Part shown: positions 2,795 through 16,906 of the stretch, piece after piece
Numbering within the stretch: the stretch's first letter is position 1
Layout of the letters: each line of letters begins with the position of its first letter
From: Pseudomonadota bacterium
GTDB lineage: Bacteria > Pseudomonadota > Gammaproteobacteria > Steroidobacterales > Steroidobacteraceae
Length of the DNA: 33,736 bases
Direction of reading: 5' to 3'
Assembly (NCBI GenBank): GCA_021815925.1
Contig: JAKAZL010000023.1
Coordinates: 1 to 33,736 of the forward strand
Position numbers and translations under genes: made by a program
Notes under the pieces: model-generated
The model's input: the letters and a program-made list of their open reading frames with translations, nothing else
What the model was told of the DNA's origin: nothing
The model's database searches: none

Positions 2795-3379
2795 GTGCAA
2801 TTGGCAAGCTCAAGGCCCGATTCCAGAGAGTTCGAAGCGTTCATGCGCGCCTATCAGGACATGGTTTTCTCCACGGCAGTGCGGCTGACCGGCAGCCCCG
2901 CGCAGGCCGAGGACATCAGCCAGGACGTGTTCCTGAAGGCGTACGAGAACTTCGAGCGGCTGCGCGACAGCGCGACGGCCGGCGGCTGGCTGAAGACCGT
3001 CGCCACTAATCTGACGCTGAACCACCTGACCCGCCACCGCAAGCGCTGGCGGCTGTTCTCCGAGGTGTTCGCCGACGAGGCGGGCGAGGAGGAGATCGAG
3101 GACGCCAGCGCCACGCTCGAGAGCGCGCTGCAGCAGCTCGAGCGGGCTCAGCGTCACGCACTGCTCGAGCAGGCGCTGCGCGGCCTGCCGGAGCACCAGC
3201 GCGTGCCGCTCGTCCTGTTTCATTTCGAGGAGATGTCCTACCAGGACATCGCCGCCCGTCTCGGCCACTCGCTGGCCAAGGTCAAGACCGACATCCTGCG
3301 CGCCCGCCTGGCCATGGCCAAGGCGCTCGCCGGGAGCGGGCTCGAACCGAGCACCGACCGGAGCTGCACACCGTCATGA
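2795..3379 (+). CDS. RNA polymerase ECF sigma factor (RpoE-like)
   Basis: The 194-residue protein has the two-domain ECF layout. Region sigma2 spans about residues 12-82, with MRAYQDMVFSTAVRLTG, the AEDISQDVFLKAY motif (D40, Q43, D44) and WLKTVATNLTLNHL. An acidic linker follows at about 92-108 (EAGEEEIEDAS). Region sigma4 spans about 123-175, with LRGLPEHQRVPLVLFHFEEMSYQDIAARLG as its helix-turn-helix. It would direct RNA polymerase to stress or envelope genes. The start is GTG; no ATG precedes it in frame. Its stop overlaps the start of the next gene (ATGA at 3376), which is the usual sigma/anti-sigma coupling. The downstream operon of membrane and efflux genes is the likely regulon core. 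No signal or sensory extension is present. Confidence 0.92.
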   Translation: MQLASSRPDSREFEAFMRAYQDMVFSTAVRLTGSPAQAEDISQDVFLKAYENFERLRDSATAGGWLKTVATNLTLNHLTRHRKRWRLFSEVFADEAGEEEIEDASATLESALQQLERAQRHALLEQALRGLPEHQRVPLVLFHFEEMSYQDIAARLGHSLAKVKTDILRARLAMAKALAGSGLEPSTDRSCTPS

Positions 3380-3858
3380 AGTCCCACAATCCCGAGCACG
3401 AGCAGCAGCTCGAGCGCCTGGCGCACCGGGCGCTGCGCGAGCTGCCCCCCTGCCCCGCACCGGCCTCCCTGGAGGCGCGCGTGCTGCGGGCCATCGAGCA
3501 GCACGCGCAGCCGCGCGGCGCCGGCGTCACCCGTTGGCCGCGGGCCGTGCGCGCAGTGCTGATCGCCGCGTGTGCGCTGTGCGTGCCGCTGGTGTGGATG
3601 CTGGCGGCGCTGCTGCGCGGCCATGTGACGCACGTGCTGGCCGACTCCAGCGTCGGGCACCTGGTCATGGGCGTGAGCGGCACGAGCCGCTCGCTCCTCG
3701 GCCTCGGCGAGCTCGCCGTGCGCCTCTCGCACCTGATTCCCTCAGACTGGTTGCTCGGCGGGTTGTTCATCGTGAGCGCGGTATATGCGGGACTGATCGC
3801 GCTCGGCTACCTCCTGCTCTATCCCACCCTTCCGCATTCCAAGGCCCATTCCGTATGA
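3376..3858 (+). CDS. Small membrane protein, candidate anti-sigma factor
   Basis: The 160-residue protein has a cytoplasmic N-terminus of about 55 residues with QLERLAHRALRELPPCPAPASLEARVLRAIEQH. This helix-LPxxPAPxSLExRV pattern is common in anti-sigma-like partners of ECF factors. Hydrophobic segments follow at about residues 58-80 and 125-150, with a weaker one at about 95-115. There is no zinc HxxxCxxC motif, so if it is an anti-sigma factor it is not of the ZAS type. The assignment rests on position: translational coupling to the sigma gene (ATGA overlap) and a further ATGA overlap with the next gene at 3855. The signal that would release sigma is unknown. Confidence 0.6.
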   Translation: MKSHNPEHEQQLERLAHRALRELPPCPAPASLEARVLRAIEQHAQPRGAGVTRWPRAVRAVLIAACALCVPLVWMLAALLRGHVTHVLADSSVGHLVMGVSGTSRSLLGLGELAVRLSHLIPSDWLLGGLFIVSAVYAGLIALGYLLLYPTLPHSKAHSV

Positions 3859-5546
3859 ACAAGGTCACTCGCTGGCTTCTGACTGTCACGTTGCTCACCT
3901 GCGTGGGCGGCTGCGGGGCACCGGCCCACGCCGCCGCGCACCCAAGCAGCCCTCCGGCGCACGCCACCGCAACCGCCCACAACGGCACCACCGAGGTACA
4001 GATCGGCTCGAGCGGCATCAATGTCAGCAACGGCTCGAGCCACGTCATCATCGGCGGCTCGGGGGTCAACATCGCCGACGGGGACAAGTCCGTGATCGTC
4101 GCGGGCGATTCGGACGAGTCCTGCCCGAGCGGCCGGGAGATCGTCGCCGTCGGTCACGACGCGAGGCTCGCCGCCGGCAAGAGCGCGTGCGACGTGGTCG
4201 CGGTCTTCGGTGACAGCGTGGTGCACGGCGATGTATCGGATTCGGCCGTCGCCGTCCTGGGCGATCTGCACGTCGATGGCAGCGTCGGCAACAGCGCGGT
4301 CAGCATCTTCGGCGACGCCGACATCAACGGTCCGGTGGCCGCGAACGCGGTATCCGTGTTCGGCGACATGAAGCTCGGCCCGAAGGCGGTGATCCACGGT
4401 CAGGCCGTAAACGTGTTCGGCACGGTCGAGCGCGATCCCTCCGCCGTGGTCCAGGGCGGCGCCGTCAACGTGATGTCCGGCATCTTTCACGGCGCGCACG
4501 GGCTGAAGATCTGGAGCGAGCACTGCCTGATCCTGGGGCGGCTGCTCGCGCCGCGGCTGGACATCGGCTGGGCCTGGGGTATCGCGCTCGGGGTGCTGCT
4601 GCTGTACGCACTGCTGGCTCTGTTGTTCCGCGACGCCGTGCAGCGCTGCATCCAGACGCTCGAGGAGCATCCGGGCGCCTCCCTGCTGGCCGCGTTTGCC
4701 TCGGCACTGCTGACGCCCGTCCTGATGCTCGCGCTGGTGTTCACTATCGTCGGCATCTTTGCCATCCCGCTGTTCTGGCTGGCGCTGCTGTGCGCCGGCG
4801 TCTTCGGGCGGGTCGTGACACTCGGTTGGCTGGGCGGGCGCATCCTGCGCGGCTTTAAAGTCGGGGTCACCCAGCCGGTGCTCGACGTGCTGCTCGGCGG
4901 TGTGGTGATCCTGGCGCTGTACATGGTTCCGGTGCTCGGCTTCATCATCTACACCCTGGTCGGACTGTTCGGCTTCGGTGCCGTCATGTACACCCTGCTG
5001 CTCGCCCTGCGCGCCGCGCGCGGTACGAACGCGCAGCCGGCCGGTGGCGGCTTCGTGCCCCCGGGCGGCGCCACCGTCAGCGAGGGCGCCGCCACCTCAC
5101 CGGCCGGCGCGGGTGCGGGTGAGCCGCCCCTCGGCGCAGGTGTCACCACGCCGATGGAGTTCGCGACGCTGCCGCGGGCGGGCTTTTGGATCCGCATGCT
5201 CGCGCTGCTGATCGACATCGTGCTGATCGGCTTCGCGCTCAACCTGATCGGCCATGACGGACACAGCAGCATGCTGCTGCTGCTGGCCGCCTACGGGGCG
5301 ATCATGTGGAAGCTTCGCGGCACCACGGTCGGCGGGATCATCTGTCACCTGCGGGTCGTGCGCATCGACGGTCAGCCGCTCAACTGGGAGACCGCCATCC
5401 TGCGCGCGCTGGGCTGCTTCCTCTCGCTGGTCGCCGCCGGCCTGGGATTCTTCTGGATTGCCTTCGATCGGGAACGGCAGGGCTGGCACGACAAGATCGC
5501 CGGCACGGTCGTGGTCGTGGTGCCGAAAGTACGAGGATTGGTCTGA
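3855..5546 (+). CDS. Lipoprotein-like beta-solenoid / multi-TM / RDD fusion protein
   Basis: The 563-residue protein has an unusual layout. Residues 1-20 look like a lipoprotein signal ending in VGGC (C20). Residues 46-210 form about eight degenerate repeats of roughly 18-20 residues with recurring VAVFGD, VAVLGD, VSIFGD, VSVFGD and VNVFG, alternating with short HGDV or NGPV turns. This is a bactofilin-like or polymer-forming right-handed solenoid pattern. Membrane segments lie at about 237-258, 280-318 and 343-388, followed by a Gly/Pro/Ala linker (395-432). A C-terminal RDD domain (about 438-560) shows FWIRMLALLIDIVLIGF, TVGGIICHLRVVRIDG and a final RQGWHDKIAGTVVV. RDD proteins are membrane proteins, and some have been linked to ion transport. 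The start overlaps the anti-sigma candidate by ATGA. It may be the sensor or effector of the operon's envelope stress; this is inference. Confidence 0.75.
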   Translation: MNKVTRWLLTVTLLTCVGGCGAPAHAAAHPSSPPAHATATAHNGTTEVQIGSSGINVSNGSSHVIIGGSGVNIADGDKSVIVAGDSDESCPSGREIVAVGHDARLAAGKSACDVVAVFGDSVVHGDVSDSAVAVLGDLHVDGSVGNSAVSIFGDADINGPVAANAVSVFGDMKLGPKAVIHGQAVNVFGTVERDPSAVVQGGAVNVMSGIFHGAHGLKIWSEHCLILGRLLAPRLDIGWAWGIALGVLLLYALLALLFRDAVQRCIQTLEEHPGASLLAAFASALLTPVLMLALVFTIVGIFAIPLFWLALLCAGVFGRVVTLGWLGGRILRGFKVGVTQPVLDVLLGGVVILALYMVPVLGFIIYTLVGLFGFGAVMYTLLLALRAARGTNAQPAGGGFVPPGGATVSEGAATSPAGAGAGEPPLGAGVTTPMEFATLPRAGFWIRMLALLIDIVLIGFALNLIGHDGHSSMLLLLAAYGAIMWKLRGTTVGGIICHLRVVRIDGQPLNWETAILRALGCFLSLVAAGLGFFWIAFDRERQGWHDKIAGTVVVVVPKVRGLV

Positions 5547-10558: not shown

Positions 10559-12592
10559 TCATGGAGTGCCCAGCCGAACGCCGGCGCGAACCGCATCACC
10601 CCCTCGTACGGTCGAATCGGTACCTGACAGCGCGCGCCCGGCGATCGCTCGTCGGGTCACCACGCCGGGCGGCGCACGCAGGTAAAGACTCGAGCGGGAC
10701 AGATCGCGCAGAATGCTCTGATCCTGCGCGGCCTCCTGCGCCGGGAACTCGCGCGCGACACTGCGCCCACTCGCTACGGCGCGGAACACGCCGGCCTGGA
10801 TGCTGGCGTGGCGCTCGTAGTGAATTCCGGCGGCCGTGCGATCGATATCCGCTCCCACGACACTGAACCCCTTGCCGGCCTGCGGCAGTCGGATCGTTTC
10901 GCTTGTCCGGGTATAGAACGGATAGGCAACCGCGTAGGGTGCATCGCGTGCCGGACCGGGCGAGCGGGCGAAGTCCGCCTGGAAGCCGACGCCGAGACCC
11001 TCGATGAGGTAGTCGTGGTCGCGCCAGCGCAACCGCGCAGCTCCCTGCATCTCGAAGCGCTCGGCGTGGCGCTTGCGGTCGTAGCGGGCCGAGACGGACT
11101 TGATGTCCACGAAGCCGTATTGCTGCGTCCAATAGCGGCGCAGGGCGTCATCGAGCTGGTCCGGCGTGAGATTCGCGAGCCGCTGCTCGATGTAGAGGCC
11201 CGCATCGCCGCGCATGCTCATCTGCGCCCGAAAGGGCGCTGGCCTCAGGATGCCGGCAGATGCATCGATGCTGATGCGCGTATCGCTCAATGGCCGGCGG
11301 GCCGGGGGCGGAACCATGGACAGCAGCTGCGCACCGTGCGCTCGCAGCGGCAGGCCCCAGTGGTAATACGGCACGCGCAATTGCGCGAGGCTGCGGTCGC
11401 CGAGCCGCGTGCCGTCCAGCCAGTACGTGCGCCCGGCGATCACGGCGCGCACCAGCACGTGATTGAACAGCTCGATCATCGGCAATCGTCCCTGCACCAC
11501 GTCGCCGGCCAGCACGTTCACGGCCACCGGTTCGGCCTGGATGCCAAGCTTGTGCAGCAGCGCGAGCAACAGCACCGTCTTGGCCTTGCAGTCGCCAAAG
11601 CGCCGCGACCAGGTGAGGTCCGCCGGCGCCGGCTTCAGACCGCCGTCATTGAAATCCAGGAACAGGTAGCGCACCTGCGATTCGACCAGACGCAGCGCGA
11701 GCGCGGCCTGGCGCAGAGGGTCGGTGCTCGCGGCGCGGATGTTTGCCACCTGCTTAAGCAGTGGCGAGTGCGGCCCGAGCCTGGCCGCCCGGCGGTACAG
11801 CGGCGCGAAGCGCCGCGCCAGCTGCGCCCAGGAGCGGAACGCGGTGAAGTCCACGCGCCGGTCGACGAGAAAGCGCAGCGGCGCAAGTCGCGGCTGCAGC
11901 ACCGGCGGAACGTTGCGCATGGTCAGACTGATCCCGCGCTCGTCCCCCGATTCGATCGGATGCGCGACCGCGAGTCCCTGCCCTTCCTGCCAACGGATCG
12001 GCAGCGACCGACTCCACAGCGCGCGGATGTGCAGCCGCGCCACGGGCAGCGCCCACGGCACTTGCACCTCGGCGGAGGGGGTCCCGGCGAGCAGTGGCTC
12101 GCGGCGCACCAGGGTGTAGGCGACATCCAGGATATCCCCGACGCGCATCCCCGGCGGTTGCAGGATGGCCGTCAGTGTATCGTCGAGCGTGGCGGCCTCG
12201 AGGTTGGTCTCGCGCTTGGCGATCGTGAAATGCCGCCCGCCGGCCAGCAGGTTGATGATCTTACCGTCGCGGATCAGATCGACCTTGTGCACGACCAGCA
12301 CGTCGGTGTCCGGATCCCAGATCAGCGTGATGGTGCCCAGGGCCGACAATCCCTGCGGCGTCTGGATGCGAATGGCGTTCTCGACGTAGTAGTTGACGGT
12401 CTTTGCGGTCAGCTCGACCTGGCGGTCGGCGAGCAGAAACTGCACGGCGGCCCCGGTCGGTTTGATTGCACTCGGCACCACCTGCGGCACGACCCACGCG
12501 GCCGGCGGCGCAAAGCGCAGCTGGTGGGCTGCCAGAGCGACCCCCCACCACAGCAACGCGACAACTCCAGCGGCGATGCGACGCATCAGCAC
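10559..12592 (-). CDS. Exported DUF3857 / transglutaminase-like protein
   Basis: The 677-residue protein has a signal peptide (residues 1-22) and an N-terminal DUF3857 beta domain (about 55-230). A transglutaminase-like core follows, with C335 in RFGDCKAKTVLLLALL, H378 in FNHVLV and D393 in TYWLDGTR, a complete Cys-His-Asp triad. A C-terminal beta-rich part (DUF2569/DUF3858-like position) runs from about 420. Such proteins are periplasmic and of unknown substrate. The start may be GTG at 12592 or ATG at 12586; neither has a strong ribosome site. The last 15 residues or so look atypical. One added base in the GGG near 10568 would extend the frame to a stop at 10455, exactly against the convergent lipoprotein stop (see findings). 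It stands alone in its direction. Confidence 0.8.
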   Translation of the reverse strand: MLMRRIAAGVVALLWWGVALAAHQLRFAPPAAWVVPQVVPSAIKPTGAAVQFLLADRQVELTAKTVNYYVENAIRIQTPQGLSALGTITLIWDPDTDVLVVHKVDLIRDGKIINLLAGGRHFTIAKRETNLEAATLDDTLTAILQPPGMRVGDILDVAYTLVRREPLLAGTPSAEVQVPWALPVARLHIRALWSRSLPIRWQEGQGLAVAHPIESGDERGISLTMRNVPPVLQPRLAPLRFLVDRRVDFTAFRSWAQLARRFAPLYRRAARLGPHSPLLKQVANIRAASTDPLRQAALALRLVESQVRYLFLDFNDGGLKPAPADLTWSRRFGDCKAKTVLLLALLHKLGIQAEPVAVNVLAGDVVQGRLPMIELFNHVLVRAVIAGRTYWLDGTRLGDRSLAQLRVPYYHWGLPLRAHGAQLLSMVPPPARRPLSDTRISIDASAGILRPAPFRAQMSMRGDAGLYIEQRLANLTPDQLDDALRRYWTQQYGFVDIKSVSARYDRKRHAERFEMQGAARLRWRDHDYLIEGLGVGFQADFARSPGPARDAPYAVAYPFYTRTSETIRLPQAGKGFSVVGADIDRTAAGIHYERHASIQAGVFRAVASGRSVAREFPAQEAAQDQSILRDLSRSSLYLRAPPGVVTRRAIAGRALSGTDSTVRGGDAVRAGVRLGTP

Positions 12593-12704: not shown

Positions 12705-13097
12705 TCAAGCCACTGGGTTGGGCAGCAGGAACGCACGACGCGCCACGGCGCTCGCGAGGCGCTGCGGGCTGTACCAGCGGCTCAGCACGGCGGGGTCCAG
12801 CAGATCGGGGTTCGCCGCCGCAAAGCCAGCGAAGTCCGTCGGCGCCTCGGCGGCGAGCCGCTCGGCAATCAGCGCGAGGAACGCCAGGGTGAGCGTCTGG
12901 TGAAACTTCTCCGGTCGGCCCGCACGCTCGCACAGACGCCGCAGGGCCCGCGAGTAACGCACTGCGCCGTCGAGAAACTCGTACCGGCGAAGCGTCTCGA
13001 AACCCATGCGCACGTGCTCGCGATGCGTGAAGCGGGTCGGATCGATCCGGGCCCGCAGAAACCGCTGCAGGTCGGCGCTCGAGTCAGCGCGGCTCAT
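12705..13097 (-). CDS. Uncharacterised histidine-containing helical protein
   Basis: The 130-residue protein is predicted to be all helical. Conserved-looking elements are FTHREHVRMGFETLRRYEF (about residues 22-40), with two histidines one helical turn apart, and FHQTLTLAFLALIAERLA (about 65-82), with a third histidine. This resembles a widespread family of small hypothetical proteins whose spaced histidines suggest metal or cofactor binding. I do not know a function. The ATG at 13097 lies inside the end of the upstream RHH-like gene (14-base overlap), so the pair is translationally coupled. An earlier in-frame start would give an arginine-rich extension that looks like shadow sequence. Confidence 0.65.
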   Translation of the reverse strand: MSRADSSADLQRFLRARIDPTRFTHREHVRMGFETLRRYEFLDGAVRYSRALRRLCERAGRPEKFHQTLTLAFLALIAERLAAEAPTDFAGFAAANPDLLDPAVLSRWYSPQRLASAVARRAFLLPNPVA

Positions 13098-13338
13098 CGG
13101 ATTCACGCAGCTTGTGAGCGTCGGCGGCGCTGAGCTCGAGACCGTAGATACGCCTGAGCGCCCGGACCTTGCGCAGGGTCTCGGCGGAGAACGGCACGCG
13201 ACCCTCAAAGGCATGCAACACGACCCCCTCGAGCAGGTCCCCGAGGGACAGATCCAGCTCGGCGGCGAGCGCCTTCAGCACCTTCAACAGGTGCGCTTCG
13301 ATGCGCACGCCAGTCTGCACACGGGTCACGGTCTTCAT
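13084..13338 (-). CDS. Small ribbon-helix-helix-like DNA-binding protein
   Basis: The 84-residue protein has an N-terminal strand-helix-helix pattern: TRVQTGVRIEAHLLKVLKAL, then AELDLSLGDLLEGVVLHAFEG. This fits a ribbon-helix-helix (MetJ/Arc/CopG) fold, with a basic beta strand, a helix, a short turn with Ser/Gly, and a second hydrophobic helix. A charged helical tail follows (about residues 48-84). Such proteins bind DNA as dimers and usually repress their own operon. Just upstream (13346-13369) are three contiguous 8-bp GTAC-centred boxes, a plausible autoregulatory operator. No Shine-Dalgarno sequence precedes the ATG. TATAGA, ending 2 bases before it, could be a -10 for a nearly leaderless mRNA. 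It is the first gene of the two-gene unit with the uncharacterised protein. Confidence 0.65.
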   Translation of the reverse strand: MKTVTRVQTGVRIEAHLLKVLKALAAELDLSLGDLLEGVVLHAFEGRVPFSAETLRKVRALRRIYGLELSAADAHKLRESDEPR

Positions 13339-13345
13339 CTCTATA

Positions 13346-13369
13346 TGGTACCAATGTACTTTGGTACCA
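13346..13369 (-). promoter_or_regulatory. Three tandem 8-bp palindromic boxes, candidate RHH operator
   Basis: Three contiguous 8-base boxes read TGGTACCA (13346-13353), ATGTACTT (13354-13361) and TGGTACCA (13362-13369). GTAC is centred in each at an exact 8-base period. The outer boxes are perfect palindromes and also form a 10-bp inverted repeat (13345-13354 with 13361-13370). MetJ, a ribbon-helix-helix repressor, binds tandem 8-bp palindromic met boxes in this arrangement. The array ends 8 bases before the start of the RHH-like gene and covers the place of its promoter. Confidence 0.6.
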
Positions 13370-13538
13370 TGCAAATCGAGCCGCTCGCACGCCACCGCGC
13401 CCACTCCGGCTCCGCCCGGTAGAATGCGCTCTCGGCACAAATCGGGAGCTGGAGCGCGCCCGGGGGTGCTGCCCGGGGAACCCCGGCGGCGCACACCGGT
13501 CAATCCGGCTCTCGGGAACACTCTGGAGGCACCTTGCC

Positions 13539-14564
<1,026 letters not shown>

Positions 14565-14571
14565 GGCCATC

Positions 14572-15474
14572 ATGGTCATCCCGACGCTCGAGGACCTGCT
14601 GGCGCTGCGTGGTGCCGCGCACGGCCTGTCACTGCAGCGCCGGCGGCGGGCGCGGGCCGCGCTGATCGGCGCCCATGCGAGCGCGCAGCGCGGTCGCGGC
14701 CTGGAGTTCCAGGAGGTCCGCCCCTACACCCCGGGGGACGATCCGCGCAACATCGACTGGCGCGTGACGGCACGGCGCGGCCGGCCGCACACCAAGCTCT
14801 ATCACGAGGAGCGCGAGCGGCCGGTCTGGCTGCTGGTCGATCTTCAGCCAGGCTGCTTCTTCGGCAGCCGCCGGCAGCTGAAGTCCGCGCTCATCGTTCG
14901 CGCCGCGGCCCTGCTCGCCTGGATCGCCGCTCTCGACGGCGATCGGATCGGCGCGCTCATCAGCGGGGGCCGCGGACCGGCACACATCGTGCCGGCCCGC
15001 GCGCGACTGCAGGGCGTGCTGCCGATTCTCGAGGCGTTGCTCGCAGCGCAGCCGACCGCCCCCGGTGAGCCGGCACCGCAGTCGCTGCACGAGACGCTGC
15101 GGGCTGCGGCGGCCTTGATTCGGCCGGGCAGCCAGATCCTGGCGCTCAGCGACTTCTGTGCCCCCGCCACCGAGAACGACGATCCATGGCTGCCCGTAGC
15201 GCGGCACAATGACATCCGGCTGTTCTGGGCCACCGATCCGCTCGAGGAACAGGGCCTGCCCGATGGGCGCTTCCGGGCTGGCCTGCCCGGCCGGCTCGCC
15301 GCGCTCGACGGACAGCGAGTGCGCGCTGCCTGGCGCGCGGCGTGGCAGGATCGGGAGCGGCACCTGACGCGGTTGTCCCAGCGCCTCGCGGCACCGGTGG
15401 TGCGCCTGGACACCGCCGCACCGGTCGAGTCGTCGCTGCGCGCGGCATTGCTCGGGGGATCCTCGGCGGCATGA
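14572..15474 (+). CDS. DUF58 domain protein of the Bat operon
   Basis: The 300-residue protein carries the DUF58 signature at about residues 42-92: GRGLEFQEVRPYTPGDD, then RNIDWRVTARRGRPHTKLYHEER. A VWA-like core follows, beginning RPVWLLVDLQPGCFF. DUF58 proteins are constant partners of MoxR ATPases and are thought to be adaptors or clients. The protein lacks membrane segments. Its VWA-like motif reads DLQPG rather than DxSxS, as is common in DUF58. The gene starts 7 bases after moxR, and its stop overlaps the start of the DUF4381 gene (ATGA at 15471). Confidence 0.93.
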   Translation: MVIPTLEDLLALRGAAHGLSLQRRRRARAALIGAHASAQRGRGLEFQEVRPYTPGDDPRNIDWRVTARRGRPHTKLYHEERERPVWLLVDLQPGCFFGSRRQLKSALIVRAAALLAWIAALDGDRIGALISGGRGPAHIVPARARLQGVLPILEALLAAQPTAPGEPAPQSLHETLRAAAALIRPGSQILALSDFCAPATENDDPWLPVARHNDIRLFWATDPLEEQGLPDGRFRAGLPGRLAALDGQRVRAAWRAAWQDRERHLTRLSQRLAAPVVRLDTAAPVESSLRAALLGGSSAA

Positions 15475-15941
15475 ACGGTCAGTGGCTGACACGGCTCGCG
15501 CCGCCGCATGCGCCGCCGCCGCCCTCGCTCTGGCCGCCGGCGCCGGGCTGGTGGCTGCTCGCGGCGCTGACGCTTGCCCTGCCGGCGATCGCGCTGTGGT
15601 GGTGGCGGAATCCGCCACGGCGTCGCAGGCGCGCCGCGCTGCGTGAGTTGCGGCGCATCCACGCCGCGACCGACCCGCGTGAGAGTGCCCGCGCCATCGA
15701 GAGTCTGCTGCGCCGCTATGCGATGACTGTGTTTGGCCGCGAGCGGGTCGCACGCCTCGCTGGCGCGGCCTGGCTCGAGTTCCTCGGCGGTGAGGGCGGC
15801 GACATGCTCGGCGGTGAGCCGGGCCGGGATCTGCTCGCGGCCGCCTTTGGCGGCACGGTCCGCGACCGGCGCGCCGAGTGGCTCGCCGGCGCCGAGCGCT
15901 TCGTTCGCCAGGCGCGTGACACGGCCCGCAGGCGCCGCTGA
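15471..15941 (+). CDS. DUF4381 membrane protein of the Bat operon
   Basis: The 156-residue protein has a Pro-rich N-terminus (LAPPHAPPPPSLWPPAPGWW). One membrane helix lies at about residues 28-46 (LLAALTLALPAIALWWW), followed by a strongly basic stretch (RNPPRRRRRAALRELRR). The rest is a soluble helical domain with ARAIESLLRRYAMTVFGRERVARLAGAAWLEFL. This order is typical of DUF4381, found between DUF58 and the VWA proteins in Gram-negative Bat operons. The positive-inside rule places the helical domain in the cytoplasm, where it could meet MoxR and DUF58 (inference). The start overlaps the DUF58 stop and the last base overlaps the next ATG, so coupling is tight on both sides. Confidence 0.9.
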   Translation: MNGQWLTRLAPPHAPPPPSLWPPAPGWWLLAALTLALPAIALWWWRNPPRRRRRAALRELRRIHAATDPRESARAIESLLRRYAMTVFGRERVARLAGAAWLEFLGGEGGDMLGGEPGRDLLAAAFGGTVRDRRAEWLAGAERFVRQARDTARRRR

Positions 15942-16906
15942 TGTTCCATTTCGCCTGGCCCTGGATGATCCTGCTCGCACCCCTGCCCTGGGTCCTCAGG
16001 CGGGTGCTGCCGCCAAGCGGGGCGCGCGGCACGGCGCTGTACGTGCCGATGGCGGCCGAGCTGGCCGCCGCCGGATCCGGTGCCCCGCGGGCCCCGCGGG
16101 CCGACGCCGTGCTGCTGACGGGCACCTGGCTGCTGCTCATCCTGGCGGCGATGCGACCCCAGTGGCTGGGCGAGCCGGTCCCGGTGCACACGGTGGGCCG
16201 GCAGATCATCCTGGCGGTCGACTGCTCCGGCTCCATGGCCACCCAGGACATGGGCGCAGGGGCGAGCCGGCTGCAGGTGGTGCAGCAGGTCGCCGGCCGG
16301 TTCATCAGCGACCGGCACGGAGATCAGGTCGGATTGATCCTGTTCGGCACCCGACCCTATCTGCAGGCGCCGCTCACCGGGGATCTCGGCACCGTGCACC
16401 GTTTCCTCGACCAGGCGATGGTCGGTGTCGCCGGTCCGCAGACCGCCATTGGCGATGCCATCGGGCTGGCGATCAAGACGCTGCGGCAGGACAACCGCTC
16501 GGCGCGCACGCAGCGCCAGCCGCTGATGATCCTGCTCACCGACGGGGGCAACAATACCGGAGTGATGCCGCCGCTCGAGGCAGCGCATCTCGCCGCGCAG
16601 ACGGGACTGCGCATCGACACGATCGGAGTGGGCGCGGCGGTGCGCCAGACCTTCTTCGGCACCAGCGGCAACACCGACCTCGATACGCGTCTGCTCAAGC
16701 AGATCGCCCGGATCACTGGCGGGCGCTACTTCCGCGCCACCGACCGCGGAGCGCTGCGCGCCGTCTACCGACAGATCAACCGCCTCGAACCGGTGGCCGG
16801 CGACCGGCGCTGGCTGCGCCCGGCCACGGAATGGTTCGGCGTACCGCTGGCGCTGGCGCTGCTGCTGAGCGTCGCGGCGTCGTGGCGCATGACGGAGCGT
16901 GCGTAA
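15941..16906 (+). CDS. batA: VWA domain membrane protein, BatA-like
   Basis: The 321-residue protein has two N-terminal membrane helices (about residues 5-20 and 56-72), a von Willebrand factor A domain (about 86-290) and a C-terminal helix at about 302-315. The MIDAS site is intact: DCSGS (D94, S96, S98), a threonine in GPQTAIGDAIG and an aspartate in LLTDGGNN. BatA-type proteins place the metal-binding VWA domain in the periplasm next to the membrane, where they probably assemble with BatB and client proteins. The ATG shares its first base with the previous stop (TGATG). The next gene follows after 4 bases. Confidence 0.9.
   Translation: MFHFAWPWMILLAPLPWVLRRVLPPSGARGTALYVPMAAELAAAGSGAPRAPRADAVLLTGTWLLLILAAMRPQWLGEPVPVHTVGRQIILAVDCSGSMATQDMGAGASRLQVVQQVAGRFISDRHGDQVGLILFGTRPYLQAPLTGDLGTVHRFLDQAMVGVAGPQTAIGDAIGLAIKTLRQDNRSARTQRQPLMILLTDGGNNTGVMPPLEAAHLAAQTGLRIDTIGVGAAVRQTFFGTSGNTDLDTRLLKQIARITGGRYFRATDRGALRAVYRQINRLEPVAGDRRWLRPATEWFGVPLALALLLSVAASWRMTERA

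Follow-up and report, generated by a model that had tools for sequence, protein, structure and literature searches.

An 84-residue protein encoded in the stretch of DNA analysed here (33,736 nucleotides, referred to below as the window) is predicted to be a ribbon-helix-helix (RHH) autorepressor of its own two-gene unit, acting through three boxes of 8 bp ahead of its gene. Its build would be like that of MetJ, but it would not be a MetJ. The probability of this reading is put at about 0.8. The computed features on which it draws are the modelled RHH fold, the spacing of the boxes at period 8, the link between the boxes and the gene, the small number of other sites, the covariation of the boxes with residue 7 of the protein, and the overlap of the boxes with a promoter-like element within the genus.

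The operator lies at 13346–13369 on the minus strand, and was delimited by its sequence and by the conservation of the period of 8 in homologues. In gene orientation the three contiguous boxes are TGGTACCA (13369–13362), AAGTACAT (13361–13354) and TGGTACCA (13353–13346); on the forward strand they read TGGTACCA (13346–13353), ATGTACTT (13354–13361) and TGGTACCA (13362–13369). A preliminary description of this DNA had reported three contiguous boxes with GTAC every 8 bases, and this holds, with GTAC starting at 13348, 13356 and 13364. The gap of 8 bases that it gave between the boxes and the gene start needs correction – 7 bases separate the last box from the ATG. There are two copies of TGGTACCA in the 33.7-kb window where 0.04 would be expected, and none of 100 shuffles reached two. 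The operator has a score of 33.2 with a three-box matrix and is the sole high-scoring site in the window, the next matches listed (15.0 or less) being shifted frames of the same operator. The assembly to which the window belongs (93.8% complete) has one strict three-box place, the operator itself. The reading frame of gene 1 stays open upstream across the boxes. Coding sequence was considered as an origin of the boxes and rejected, since their phasing is by 8 bp and not by codons, and homologues align from the ATG or at most about 16 residues earlier.

Gene 1 (13084–13338, minus strand) was recognised as encoding a predicted RHH protein of 84 amino acids from its open reading frame, its homologues, an alignment of these (A1) and an AF2 model. 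The model built on A1 has a pLDDT of 84.2 (84.2 to 67.2 across five models), a pTM of 0.72, and helices at residues 15–27, 32–44, 52–65 and 71–74. The recognition strand is expected within residues 4–12, and in the AF2 monomer model it is not formed but remains coil. Structure prediction had been proposed earlier as a check on the fold, and the outcome agrees with it: in a second look with VIA, the model superposes on RHH folds, including CopG (2cpg_C; Z 4.9, rmsd 1.1, 42 residues). Other top rows are Arc, PutA and the RHH antitoxins AtaR and TacA (Z of 4.9 or less). All of the Z scores are below 5, and an unrelated helical chain, 6q7p, also reaches 4.7. MetJ is absent from the 50 VIA entries listed for this model, but may have a place further down. 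Foldseek found no match to the model at E 0.001, the top row being an antitoxin complex of RHH type (E 1.4).

Pfam RHH_4 matches all 30 of the aligned homologues at E of 1 or less, with a best value of 3e-4, and Pfam HTH_26 also matches 12 of the 30, with a best E of 0.011. PHROGs returned weak rows only (Arc-like repressor, E 0.097), NCBIfam one chance-like row for one of the 30 members of A1 (E 0.0084), and PDB sequence searches no row below E 0.1. Residues R6, T9, G10, K22, L35, E37, L41, F50 and Y65 are invariant in all 93 distinct homologues, Q8, R12 and H42 are conserved in 92 of the 93, and H75 is found in all 92 that cover it. Residues 9, 11 and 13 of Arc are its DNA-reading positions, and in the register given by VIA, residues 8, 10 and 12 of gene 1 fall on these three. 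The assignment of an RHH fold to gene 1 is based on the superposition of the model, the weak Pfam rows and the conservation of the strand. The RHH-like N-terminus of the preliminary description is supported, with the reservation that the match of the window protein to the RHH_4 family model (E 0.02) is not significant, at 15.4 bits against a cut-off of 25.

Counting the window's own genome each time, an RHH homologue was found in 41 of 99 genomes near that of the window, 87 of 296 genomes of the order, 3 of 369 of the class and 11 of 398 of the phylum. Twenty-eight loci come from records of Proteobacteria (several classes), Acidobacteria, Dormiibacterota, Nocardioides, ‘Lutibacter’ and others, and one further match is in a Nonomuraea record. 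The 58 initial loci were reduced to 48 that are distinct by protein and upstream sequence. Alignment A1 holds 30 of 47 distinct proteins, and the corresponding alignment of partner proteins, A2, holds 22 of 34; both selections were made by hand for spread. Because the 48 loci had trained the matrix, a held-out set of 43 loci was also scored, with L126 omitted as a repeat of L030. Twenty regions from the order were hand-picked for variety among the matches there that did not yet have a locus, and some of the held-out loci come from the same genome or genus as another of them or as a locus used for training.

Gene 2 (12705–13097, minus strand) overlaps gene 1 by 14 bases and encodes a 130-residue all-helical protein with an HxxH motif. 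Its AF2 model is all-helical with a pLDDT of 94.9; Foldseek gave no match to it at E 0.001, and VIA gave Z of 4.0 or less. No row was obtained for the window protein in Pfam, NCBIfam, PADLOC or PHROGs, and its family, A2, has single-member Pfam rows only (best 0.021) and none in NCBIfam. H25, H28, T68 and T70 are invariant among the 22 aligned A2 partners, which suggests, as a guess from sequence, a metal or cofactor site.

The two-gene unit described earlier is present in the larger part of the relatives, with the helical partner A2 at 34 of the 48 loci and 29 of the 43 held-out loci. This claim is refined by the finding of a second partner – at 8 of the 48 and 6 of the 43 loci an SRPBCC-like protein is encoded instead. 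The name SRPBCC-like is based on Pfam rows together with a profile built with L041, L042, L045, L047 and L048. Among six of these proteins tested, that of L048 is just above the Pfam Polyketide_cyc2 cut-off, those of L050 and L058 are below it, and those of L041, L045 and L057 have no Pfam match at E 0.01. At L002, L005 and L011 the RHH gene and boxes are kept beside a shortened or incomplete partner frame. The partner also occurs in genomes that gave no RHH match, at L087, L088 and L089 (genomes G127, G278 and G338). At L054, in ‘Lutibacter sp. B2’, the RHH gene is followed at 3315–3938 by a carbonic anhydrase gene (Pro_CA, E 8e-51).

Two small overlapping genes, the first encoding the RHH protein and preceded by an operator-like site, could also form a type II toxin-antitoxin system in which the RHH protein is both antitoxin and autorepressor and the second gene encodes the toxin. 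AtaR and TacA, which appear among the structural rows for gene 1, are antitoxins of this fold encoded by the first of two genes, but the partners are interchangeable here and belong to two unrelated families, one of them SRPBCC-like. This explanation is improbable on several further counts. The partner is held by 6 of the 369 class genomes, and 3 of these (those just named) have no RHH match. The RHH gene in turn occurs without either partner at 6 of the 48 loci, one of which (L053) is on a contig that ends there, and at 8 of the 43. The C-terminal part of the protein keeps F50 and Y65 (93 of 93) and H75 (92 of 92), unlike the variable tail with which an antitoxin neutralises its toxin. There was no PADLOC match, no RHH homologue was found in the phages and viral contigs searched, and the one PLSDB record with a match is 11.85 Mb in size.

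A strict box was defined as [GT]GTA[AC], with 300 dinucleotide shuffles as the control. Pairs of strict boxes were found at period 8 in 32 of the 48 distinct upstream regions and at period 16 in 20, and at all other periods between 5 and 20 in none (0/48). Three strict boxes were present in 16 of the 48. In the shuffles (n=300), the two-box count had a mean of 0.03 and a maximum of 1. The strict two-box rule is failed by 16 of the 48 upstream regions, including that of the window in gene orientation, because the middle box of the window reads AAGTACAT. With the matrix, a three-box site was found in 47 of the 48, counting L057, which has two perfect boxes, and L048 and L050, in which the third box lies over the start codon. 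L051 has no boxes in its upstream region, the sole such case among the 48 distinct loci.

In the held-out loci, a three-box site (at least 18 bits) was found in 40 of 43, compared to 1 of 797 control stretches taken from those loci. These sites are in 9 of the 10 loci from other genera of the phylum and in 31 of the 33 from the order; the loci below 18 are L104, L129 and L137. The conserved 8-bp boxes that the preliminary description had suggested looking for upstream of homologues are therefore present in both sets. A chance origin of the boxes was rejected on the shuffles, the period-8 count, and the comparison of held-out loci with control stretches. The consensus of the family is TGGTACCw, with GTTAC/GTAAC variants. 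Three genomes (G1012, G889 and G948) have two copies of the RHH gene (L128/L129, L130/L131 and L132/L133), and five of these six loci carry boxes scoring at least 18, with L129 the one that does not.

The boxes go with the RHH gene rather than with its partner, and are seldom found elsewhere. They are still present at loci that lack both partners (L017, L030, L044 and L054). The partner-only loci L087 and L088 have no site, and L089 has a weak site (13.6) more than 1 kb off. At L052, and also at L061 and L069 with provisional gene starts, the partner gene is divergent, and its conserved part and that of the RHH gene lie on either side of the operator. Across 57 genomes there are 16 distinct strict three-box places, and a reversed control pattern has 6. 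The operator is therefore local, since 14 of the 16 are within about 110 bp of an RHH gene. A regulon was considered and rejected, as the two strict places away from an RHH gene (L063 and L079) do not exceed the 6 of the reversed control. These two (at about 1499–1522) are near-identical three-box sites in the genomes G003 and G014 of the same genus, and are possibly a second target or a product of chance.

In the sequences compared, residue 7 of the strand, which is Val or Thr, covaries with the type of box, and does so in the held-out loci as well, with relatedness only partly controlled. The ratio of GTAC boxes to the rest (GTTAC/GTAAC) is 66:9 with Val7 and 21:30 with Thr7 (29 and 18 of 50 loci). 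Outside the genus it is 24:5 with Val7 vs. 1:13 with Thr7, and inside the genus 42:4 vs. 20:17. The closest Val/Thr pairs give 12 for the association, 1 against and 5 ties. The held-out counts, which omit the three loci below a score of 18, are 18:8 over 14 loci with Val7 vs. 8:36 over 19 loci with Thr7. Exceptions are L056, which has Val with GTTAC/GTAAC boxes, and L009, L023 and L027, which have Thr with GTAC. In a scan of positions residue 7 came second to residue 81, which was known for 31 loci in small groups. Placed by the register of Arc, residue 7 would lie off the DNA-facing side of the strand, and its effect on the box may therefore be indirect.

A promoter-like element coincides with the boxes in an alignment of 28 relatives within the genus, from which L012 and L030 were omitted as having their best site at another distance. 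In these relatives, a TTGATG-like element adjoins the first box or overlaps with it, and TAcCAT follows after a 17-bp spacer. The corresponding features of the window, all on the minus strand and all inferred from the relatives, are a putative -35 element TTGCAT at 13369–13374, an 18-bp spacer, and a putative -10 hexamer TACCAT at 13345–13350, made up of the end of the last box and one further base. Positions 1, 2, 5 and 6 of the -10 element are T, A, A and T at 0.97 (with pseudocount) among the 28. The final T of the hexamer is outside the box, yet is kept as well as the box. The start codon begins 7–9 bases after the last box in the 28 relatives, and the usual distance from -10 to +1 would place the transcription start at the start codon or at most two bases from it. 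In the window, the distance to the -10-like hexamer predicts a start at the A of the ATG (13338, minus strand). A strict sigma-70 consensus scan of this stretch of the window found no promoter, so the picture of the promoter is taken wholly from the alignment. Outside the genus the distances between boxes and start differ, so the leaderless picture applies to the genus only.

The coincidence of operator and promoter-like element in the genus would also suit an explanation in which the boxes belong to another regulator, or to the promoter alone, and the RHH protein acts elsewhere. This is very unlikely, as the boxes accompany the RHH gene in different phyla independently of the partner and its orientation, their phasing stays at exactly 8 bp while the distance to the start varies, and they covary with residue 7 of the RHH protein itself.

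In the autorepressor reading, dimers of the protein would bind side by side at 13346–13369, probably with cooperativity, each taking one 8-bp palindromic box. The boxes would fill the space between the -35-like and -10-like elements and take in most of the latter, so that the bound protein would shut RNA polymerase off its own two-gene promoter; the effect would be repression rather than activation. The message would probably be leaderless, starting at or next to the ATG.

Several known systems resemble this one in part. CopG and Arc are small repressors, and the RHH core of gene 1 superposes on theirs at 1.1 Å over 41–42 residues with Z of 4.5–4.9. Gene 1 differs from them in its 8-bp tandem boxes, an extra helix at 52–65, a chromosomal unit, and a partner that does not look regulatory. 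Aux1 of pLS20 is an RHH protein with a 25-bp binding stretch that holds one TGGTACCA, according to PMC5675868, and it differs in having one copy of the palindrome and in being a relaxosome protein at oriT. The new specificity of the TGGTACCA type claimed in the preliminary description has to be qualified – the box is unlike the met box, but the binding stretch of Aux1 contains such a sequence. The paper PMC5909449 contains GGTACCATGGTACC. A literature search outside subscription journals gave, among the matches listed, no paper on this RHH family or operator.

The layout also resembles that of MetJ. One MetJ dimer occupies one 8-bp site, at least two adjacent sites being needed for repression (PMC3228920), and MetJ controls its own gene too (PMC2775130). 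By sequence, tandem palindromic boxes of 8 bp are shared, and the family protein and MetJ have LKVLK of helix A and LHAF.G of helix B in common. Comparison of A1 with three MetJ proteins by hhalign gave 62.5% over 40 columns; PutA reached 0.6% and NikR 0.1%, and none of 60 column shuffles exceeded 1.5%. E. coli MetJ against the family profile gave 63.6% over 40 columns, and BLASTP of a single pair gave E 0.005. MetJ differs in its length (105 vs. 84 residues) and in nine extra residues between helices A and B; the box here is TGGTACCw and not a met box, and the operator is local, with no regulon seen. Glu39 and Arg42 of MetJ interact with its corepressor SAM, the latter as described in PMC2775130. 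That gene 1 encodes a genuine MetJ, repressing methionine genes with SAM as corepressor, is almost certainly wrong in spite of the 8-bp boxes and the hhalign value, as Pfam MetJ (PF01340) has no row for the 30 members at E of 1 or less and none in the window's own genome (the E. coli control was positive), the box and the regulon do not correspond, and the Arg42 stretch falls in a gap of the alignment with gene 1. The system thus has the layout of MetJ, and there may be a distant relationship between the two proteins, but this one falls outside MetJ by family model, by box sequence and by regulon.

The conserved LHAFEG segment of gene 1 aligns with the end of helix B of MetJ. As a guess, a small molecule near this segment might tune repression, and the partner, whether helical with HxxH or SRPBCC-like, might handle or carry that molecule. 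The two partner families may share a role, because they have the same place beside the same regulator. A wider reading, which is tentative and on balance doubtful, is that the family represents an unrecognised MetJ-type branch across several phyla, in which the 8-bp tandem logic and LHAF-G were kept and the DNA code and ligand changed. Such a protein would sense a small molecule and control in place a swappable effector (the helical HxxH protein or the SRPBCC-like carrier), leaderless in the genus, with Val or Thr at residue 7 tuning the centre of the box.

With the predicted autorepressor, an unnamed protein family gains a testable job, and a DNA code that can be read off the sequence in different phyla. 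The alternation between Val and Thr at residue 7 offers a natural experiment on how the RHH strand reads DNA. A regulator distantly like MetJ but with no methionine genes to control would illustrate how the 8-bp stacking of MetJ has been reused.

Genes divergent from the operator at 13539–16906 appear by eye to encode a MoxR ATPase, a DUF58 protein and a von Willebrand A protein, the first of them about 170 bp from the operator. A large minus-strand ORF at 10559–12592 appears by eye to be of the transglutaminase type (DUF3857).
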